DNA of 64,000 nt from Sphaerobacter thermophilus DSM 20745 (lineage in GTDB: Bacteria; Chloroflexota; Chloroflexia; Thermomicrobiales; Thermomicrobiaceae): positions 310,001 through 374,000 of the forward strand of contig NC_013524.1 in NCBI RefSeq assembly GCF_000024985.1, given 5' to 3'. The position numbers and the translations under genes are program-made. Each line of letters begins with the position of its first letter. The first letter of the stretch is position 1. Shown here piece after piece: positions 50,210-51,388 of the stretch. The notes under the pieces were generated by a model, which was not told the origin of the DNA, made no database searches, and saw only the letters and a program-made list of their open reading frames with translations.

Positions 50210-51388
50210 CTACGCGATGGCTTCTTCCCGAGCCCGTGCCGGTCGCCAGGTGATGCGGGGAACGATCCGGTCCATCACGACCCGGTCGCGGTACCGCTGG
50301 ATCACCCGCAGCATCGACTCAACAAGCTCCTCCGAGAGGTAGTGCGGCTTCAGGCCGAGGTCGATGAGCTTGGTGTGCTTCGCGTTGTAGTAGTGTTCCT
50401 CCTGTTCGACGCGCGGGTCGGGGATCGGACGGATCTCCGTTCGGAGGCCCAGCTCAGTTCCGGCCTTCGCCACCACCTCGGCCAACTGCATCACCGTGAA
50501 CTGCTCGGTGAACTGGTTGAAGACCCGATACTCGCCCTCCGCCGGGGGGTTGTTGGCGGTCAATTCCACGCACTGCAGCGTGTCCTTGATATTGAGGAAG
50601 CCGCGCGTCTGGCCGCCCTTGCCGTAGACGGTGAGCGGGTGGCCGATCACAGCCTGGACGCAGAAGCGGTTCAGGGCCGTGCGGAAGCACTCGTCATAAT
50701 CGAAGCGCGTGATCAGCCGTTCGTCCTGAACGGTCTCCTCGGTCTCAATGCCGTACACGACGCCCTGGTTGAGGTCGGTGCAGCGCAGCCCCCAGGCGCG
50801 GCAGGCGAACTGGATGTTGTGGCTGTCGTGAACCTTGGAGAGGTGATAGAAGGAGCCGGGCTGCTTCGGGAACGGCAGGATGTCGGAGCGCCCGTTGTGG
50901 TGGATCTCGATGAAGCCTTCCTCAATATCGATGTTGGGCGTGCCGTACTCGCCCATGGTTCCCAGCTTGATCAGGTGACAGTCGGGCGCGTGATCGCGCA
51001 GTGCGAAGAGCAGGTTGAGCGTGCCCACAACGTTGTTGGTCTGGGTGAAGACAGCGTGGGCGCGGTCCATCATCGAGTAGGGGGCACTAGGTTGCTCGGC
51101 ATAGTGAATCACCGCATCAGGAGCGAAGTCCCGGATGACCGGCTCAAGGAAGCTGTAGTCCGTGATATCCCCGATGAAGACCTGAAGCTCGCGCCCGCTC
51201 ACCTCATGCCAGGCGCGGACGCGCTCCTGGAGCGGACGGATCGGCGTGAGGCTGTCCGTCCCCAGCTCCACGTGGTAGTGGCGGCGGAGGAAGTTGTCGA
51301 CAATGCCGACCTCGTGGCCGCGCGCCGAGAAACGCAGGGCCGTCGGCCAGCCCAGATATCCATCGCCGCCAAGCACGAGAATTCGCAC
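50210..51388 (-). CDS. sqdB: UDP-sulfoquinovose synthase
   Basis: The 392-aa short-chain dehydrogenase-type enzyme converts UDP-glucose and sulfite to UDP-sulfoquinovose. It has the NAD motif GGDGYLGW (7-14), SLTPI at 46-50, the active-site T-M-G-E block ([17 protein letters not shown], Thr144/Glu147), the YHLSK motif (Tyr181/Lys185) and [27 protein letters not shown]. These agree closely and nearly in register with plant SQD1 and bacterial SqdB. The GTG at 51388 gives the family start; GGGGAAGG precedes it. It heads the minus-strand cluster, 120 bases before the flippase gene, so its product may go into the polysaccharide rather than, or as well as, sulfolipid. Confidence 0.93.

Follow-up and report, generated by a model that had tools for sequence, protein, structure and literature searches.

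To our knowledge, sulfoquinovose is regarded almost wholly as a lipid head group of phototrophs, the known exception being archaeal N-glycans. The chemistry of SqdB, which leads to UDP-sulfoquinovose, requires sulfite. The closest described systems are SQD1 of Arabidopsis and the SqdB enzymes of cyanobacteria and Chloroflexales, Agl3 of Sulfolobus acidocaldarius, which serves the sulfoquinovose of an S-layer N-glycan, and bacterial Wzx/Wzy exopolysaccharide loci. Exchange of Arg101 for Ala in the Sulfolobus enzyme Agl3 abolishes activity and leaves the protein inactive overall, and Agl3 without sulfite yields UDP-glucose-5,6-ene (PMC4388408). Within the open-licence literature searched, we found no paper that describes sulfoquinovose as part of a bacterial polysaccharide or that reports on sqdB of Sphaerobacter.

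The sqdB gene described here, from Sphaerobacter thermophilus DSM 20745, encodes a protein that resembles SQD1 and SqdB over its full length, with about 60-68% identity, the same fold and the TMGEY and YxxxK motifs. It differs from them in a Pro that replaces the invariant Arg of EQRSAPYS, in its polysaccharide neighbours and in a genome without SqdX. With Agl3 it shares the enzyme family and a surface glycan as proposed destination; Agl3, however, keeps the essential Arg and its route is N-glycosylation, whereas the cluster here is of Wzx/Wzy type, and the sequence is closer to lipid-type enzymes than to Agl3-like ones of Chloroflexota. A SqdB homologue as first gene sets the locus apart from usual Wzx/Wzy loci. 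Agrobacterium pAt1D1460 and one further Chloroflexota genome (G362) also have a sqdB homologue among glycosyltransferases in a glycan-type cluster, so this genome is not alone in the arrangement, although those sqdB lineages are distant (39% identity; Agl3-like) and their neighbours differ. On balance, we think it probable that this gene specifies a divergent form of UDP-sulfoquinovose synthase and that the sugar it provides becomes part of a surface polysaccharide of the Wzx/Wzy type.

A sqdB homologue at the head of a polysaccharide cluster

The genome comprises 3,993,764 bases in two replicons, and the stretch analyzed as a whole, 64,000 nucleotides and called the window below, lies on the smaller one. 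The genome has a single sqdB, on the minus strand at 50210-51388. Its product is a full-length SQD1/SqdB homologue of 392 amino acids, a Pro100-type protein of the UDP-sulfoquinovose synthase family. The gene starts with a GTG at 51388, directly 3' of AGGAAGGGGAAGGACT, with a good ribosome-binding sequence 5' of it. The protein matches Arabidopsis SQD1 (1qrr/1i24) with 570 bits over residues 2-386. The UDP-sulfoquinovose synthase model NF041015 of NCBIfam also matches over the full length, at 518.8 bits, which is below the curated cut-off of 575 bits, a threshold passed by none of 400 Chloroflexota genomes and by one of 14 control genomes. In an AlphaFold2 model (mean pLDDT 77.5) the top structural matches are again 1qrr and 1i24, with a TM-score of 0.86 and ordinary epimerases far behind, and the structural alignment of this model to 1qrr gives 60% identity. 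By alignment, H95, T144, M145, E147, Y148, Y181 and K185 are all present, covering the SDR threonine, the YxxxK motif and MGEY (for the roles of these catalytic residues see PMC4388408). An Agl3-like origin was rejected, as photosynthetic Chloroflexia enzymes score 595-621 bits compared to 407-471 bits for Agl3-like Chloroflexota, and the tree described below places the protein apart from the latter.

The initial annotation had named sqdB as the first gene of a polysaccharide cluster, and this is borne out by eleven co-directional genes that span 51388 to 39076 and are nowhere more than 121 bp apart. Among the neighbours it had listed, the glycosyltransferases and amino-sugar enzymes are clear, the Wzx-type flippase (48635-50089, minus strand) is marginal with 29.5 bits against a PF01943 cut-off of 28.2, and the Wzy-like polymerase candidate (47304-48638, minus strand) stays below the PF04932 cut-off with 22.4 bits against 31.7. 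The Wzy-like protein has about 10 hydrophobic segments and a likely ATG start at 48638; its single-sequence structure model (pLDDT 52) is too poor to inform. On the same strand follow a GT4 glycosyltransferase (46071-47303), a hexapeptide acetyltransferase (45406-46056) with the sugar 3-N-acetyltransferase QdtC as top PDB match, a GNAT acetyltransferase (44651-45502) whose true start is probably further in, a Gfo/Idh/MocA sugar oxidoreductase (43575-44615), a DegT sugar aminotransferase (42449-43615) with WbpE and perosamine synthetase among its best PDB matches, a WcaI-like GT4 glycosyltransferase (41069-42424), an ArnB/PseC-like DegT aminotransferase (39782-41014) and an EPS_sugtrans-like PF02397 protein, the initiating undecaprenyl-phosphate sugar-phosphate transferase (39076-39792). 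The same region holds a Wzz/tyrosine autokinase for polysaccharide export (33574-35280, plus strand; TIGR01007 above cut-off), a DUF4012 protein (35320-37242, plus strand) and a pectate-lyase-like protein (37249-38721, minus strand; PF12708). The initiating transferase, the two GT4 enzymes, the chain-length kinase, the amino-sugar enzymes and the marginal Wzx are shared with known Wzx/Wzy loci, and the Wzy-like protein is a candidate for the polymerase of such loci. The Gfo/Idh, DegT and hexapeptide set resembles 3-acetamido-sugar enzymes, with the DegT protein near WbpE and the acetyltransferase near QdtC; the specific amino sugars we infer from these likenesses. A sigma-70-like promoter was sought at the start of the eleven-gene set and none was found, and the only terminator-like site, close to the beginning of wzx, is no better than expected by chance.

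A second Sphaerobacter species (G450) keeps the same gene order, with a SqdB 97% identical and a spacing to the GT4 gene that is exactly equal. Between the two species sqdB shows a dN of 0.013 and a dS of 0.269; the resulting dN/dS of 0.048 indicates a strongly constrained protein under purifying selection, and a pseudogene or decaying copy was rejected on this ground. A third Sphaerobacter genome (91% complete) has neither sqdB nor the GT4 gene. More widely, clear sqdB genes occur in about 70 of 400 Chloroflexota genomes and in none of the sampled other genera of the family.

Two further features of the region were noted. Against contig 221 of the second species (G450), the middle of the cluster (41069-46056) reaches 98-99.7% identity while flanking cluster genes show 88-97%, a jump that points to a recent exchange of this block by recombination. 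Just upstream of sqdB lie the remnant of a tyrosine recombinase C-terminus (52094-52225, plus strand), within a stretch that has no alignment to the sister species (51807-52344), and an adjoining tRNA-Lys gene (52349-52422, minus strand).

The replaced arginine and the source of sulfite

The Pro100 codon (51089-51091, minus strand) stands in place of the EQRSAPYS Arg that is essential in Agl3, and the alignment equates Pro100 with Arg101 in both SQD1 and Agl3 numbering. In a tree of 116 sequences, calculated with the Arg/Pro column left out, the window protein falls into a clade of 26 members (SH-aLRT 98) from non-phototroph Actinomycetota and Chloroflexota, in which this position is Pro in 22 members and Ala in four. 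Outside the clade Arg is found in 85 of 90 sequences, among them those from plants, cyanobacteria, Chloroflexia, acidobacteria, Alicyclobacillus and alphaproteobacteria; the other five have Pro and are Agl3-like or distant Chloroflexota. Further changes are fixed or nearly fixed in the clade, namely D39 to H in most members, F96 to Y and D266 to N. A Haladaptatus homologue likewise has Pro at the Arg position and, given this protein and the Agl3-like Chloroflexota, not every annotated member of the family has Arg. Since Arg is lost here but not universal in the family, we file the window protein as a SqdB-family variant and not as a proven UDP-sulfoquinovose synthase.

We considered whether Pro or Arg at this position could mark a glycan or a lipid destination and did not adopt this, because Agl3 has Arg and works in a glycan pathway, and because five genomes of Anaerolineae, each with one sqdB of the Pro type, contain SqdX-like proteins. 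Three genomes carry a pair of sqdB genes, of which one is Pro-type and the other Arg-type (G412 and G420, at loci L155, L169, L162 and L170; G418, at loci L163 and L171).

Sulfite supply poses a second question. No PAPS/APS reductase was detected in the 99.99% complete genome, either with PF01507, for which 14 of 14 control genomes were positive, or with TIGR00434; sulfite reductase (PF01077), found in 11 of the 14 controls, gave no match in the genome either. CysH is missing in the sister species too. With both of these enzymes absent, sulfite must have another source, and if sulfoquinovose is made, thiosulfate, sulfonates or the breakdown of cysteine would have to supply the sulfite. Pro100 in place of Arg, the lack of PAPS/APS reductase and sulfite reductase and the NF041015 score below cut-off weaken the reading that UDP-sulfoquinovose is the product, and the identity of the sugar is in this respect less secure than the initial annotation assumed.

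One alternative is that Pro/Ala-type enzymes no longer add sulfite, and that a non-sulfonated nucleotide sugar such as UDP-glucose-5,6-ene or a derivative enters the same polysaccharide. The loss of the Agl3-essential Arg together with the changes at D39, F96 and D266 would fit such an enzyme, as would a genome without assimilatory sulfite production and the formation of UDP-glucose-5,6-ene by Agl3 when sulfite is lacking. However, a clade member from Thermoleophilaceae (L056, 10001-14732) is an Ala-type sqdB followed on one strand by cysH (phosphoadenylyl-sulfate reductase), cysC (adenylyl-sulfate kinase), a sat reading frame and a TauE/SafE-like gene, the last two named from their sequences. 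This operon, with genes predicted to make and move sulfite, lends support to the use of sulfite by the clade; it is the only such arrangement of sqdB with sulfite genes among the loci fetched. The Anaerolineae genomes with a sole Pro-type sqdB and SqdX-like proteins also speak against a product free of sulfonate. In addition, Agl3 R101A is inactive overall, so the loss of Arg alone would not obviously spare the dehydratase step. We regard a non-sulfonated product as unlikely, while giving it more weight than the other alternatives below.

A plasmid of Pelagovum pacificum (L178, 6001-7907) also carries a sqdB homologue followed directly by a phosphoadenylyl-sulfate reductase gene, with a GT2 and a protein with an LpxB N-terminal domain nearby.

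Destination of the product

A profile for SqdX was built from sqdB-adjacent genes of cyanobacteria, acidobacteria, Alicyclobacillus and Chloroflexota. Clear SqdX proteins in 46 other genomes score at least 348 bits (the weakest 348.6) and all else at most 193, while the best match anywhere in the window genome reaches 108.7 bits, indicating no SqdX. The cluster's own GT4 enzymes were rejected as SqdX candidates with 19-20 bits (46071-47303) and 45-47 bits (41069-42424). A SqdD profile from Sinorhizobium and Loktanella gave no match genome-wide at an E-value of 0.1, with a weaker control than that for SqdX. The initial annotation's view that no recognisable sulfolipid synthase is present holds across the whole genome for SqdX and, less firmly, for SqdD. 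Its premise that sqdB normally lies beside its lipid synthase proved too strong, since only 14 of the 52 Arg-type loci fetched have SqdX and sqdB at most 6 kb apart. Taken together, the absence of known lipid synthases and the linkage of sqdB to polysaccharide genes, kept in a second species, make a polymer, and not a lipid, the best-supported destination, and this part of the sulfoquinovose polysaccharide that had been predicted stands.

It is nevertheless conceivable that UDP-sulfoquinovose is used for sulfolipid by a lipid glycosyltransferase of neither SqdX nor SqdD type encoded elsewhere in the genome, the polysaccharide genes being mere neighbours. GT4 genes are numerous, with 29 genome matches to the SqdX profile at an E-value of 0.001 or better, many sqdB genes lie apart from their lipid synthase, and the less stringent control for SqdD leaves more room for this explanation than the SqdX result does. 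Yet no GT4 of the genome comes near SqdX scores, the co-directional order and synteny are kept in the second species, and the other genera sampled from the family have no clear sqdB; we consider a sulfolipid rather improbable, more so than a non-sulfonated sugar.

A different kind of neighbour appears at related loci. Of 25 Pro/Ala loci, 11 carry a gene for a GT2 glycosyltransferase, DUF2304-like in its N-terminal part, no more than 6 kb from sqdB; none of 52 Arg loci does. Across whole genomes this GT2 occurs in 18 of the 19 Pro/Ala genomes that lack SqdX and in none of the six that have it. These counts are not independent because the loci are related, and most derive from metagenome-assembled genomes. 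Examples beside a Pro-type sqdB are L052 (3276-4451), L053 (11161-12210), L055 (8808-9878) and L058 (11143-12237). In G412 and G420 the GT2-DUF2304 gene adjoins the second, Arg-type copy of sqdB, which ties it to sqdB and not to the residue, and a strict partnership with Pro-type sqdB was for this reason not adopted. We propose the GT2-DUF2304 protein, from its gene neighbourhoods, as a candidate for a further sulfoquinovose transferase. In Sphaerobacter, UDP-sulfoquinovose could instead go to some other glycoconjugate, for instance a glycan on protein or a sugar linked to polyprenyl phosphate. For Actinomycetota such a route is suggested by the GT2-DUF2304 neighbourhood, and PMT/GT39-like membrane enzymes near sqdB at two loci (L094, L115) might also indicate it. 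Here it appears the least probable alternative, as the window genome has no such GT2 (best match 105.5 bits, compared to at least 263) and the polysaccharide genes share their transcriptional direction with sqdB.

Proposed pathway and significance

In the sulfoquinovose polysaccharide that we favour, SqdB would oxidise UDP-glucose at C4, remove water across C5-C6 and add sulfite to give UDP-sulfoquinovose. The PF02397 enzyme would begin a repeat unit on a lipid carrier, and each of the two GT4 enzymes would add to it, sulfoquinovose being the sugar that one of them transfers. The unit probably also contains a 3-acetamido sugar, which the Gfo/Idh oxidoreductase, the DegT protein and the hexapeptide acetyltransferase may make, as well as a 4-amino sugar, which may be formed by the ArnB/PseC-like enzyme with the GNAT protein. 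Wzx would then flip the unit, and the Wzy-like protein would polymerise it under the control of the Wzz/kinase. The product of the SqdB reaction, the choice of GT4 that would use it and the composition of the repeat unit are predictions, and the linkage of sqdB to GT4 genes is no proof that these enzymes accept UDP-sulfoquinovose.

Extending this to the whole Pro/Ala branch of SqdB can be done only tentatively. Its members could provide UDP-sulfoquinovose or a related sugar for surface glycans and not for SQDG, through a Wzx/Wzy system in Sphaerobacter and, in Actinomycetota, through GT2-DUF2304, which is perhaps a polyprenyl-phosphate sulfoquinovose synthase.

For this thermophilic member of the Chloroflexota a sulfonated surface sugar is likely. 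We find the Pro/Ala branch, overlooked so far, and the GT2 linked to it of greater interest. This branch makes it testable whether the Arg that is essential in Agl3 is needed throughout the family or only in some backgrounds, and the GT2-DUF2304 gene offers a concrete candidate for a further transferase of sulfoquinovose. If the proposed pathway is correct, sulfoquinovose would occur in a new place, a surface polymer of bacteria that carries a stable sulfonate charge, and such a polymer would be a possible substrate for microbes that degrade this sugar.
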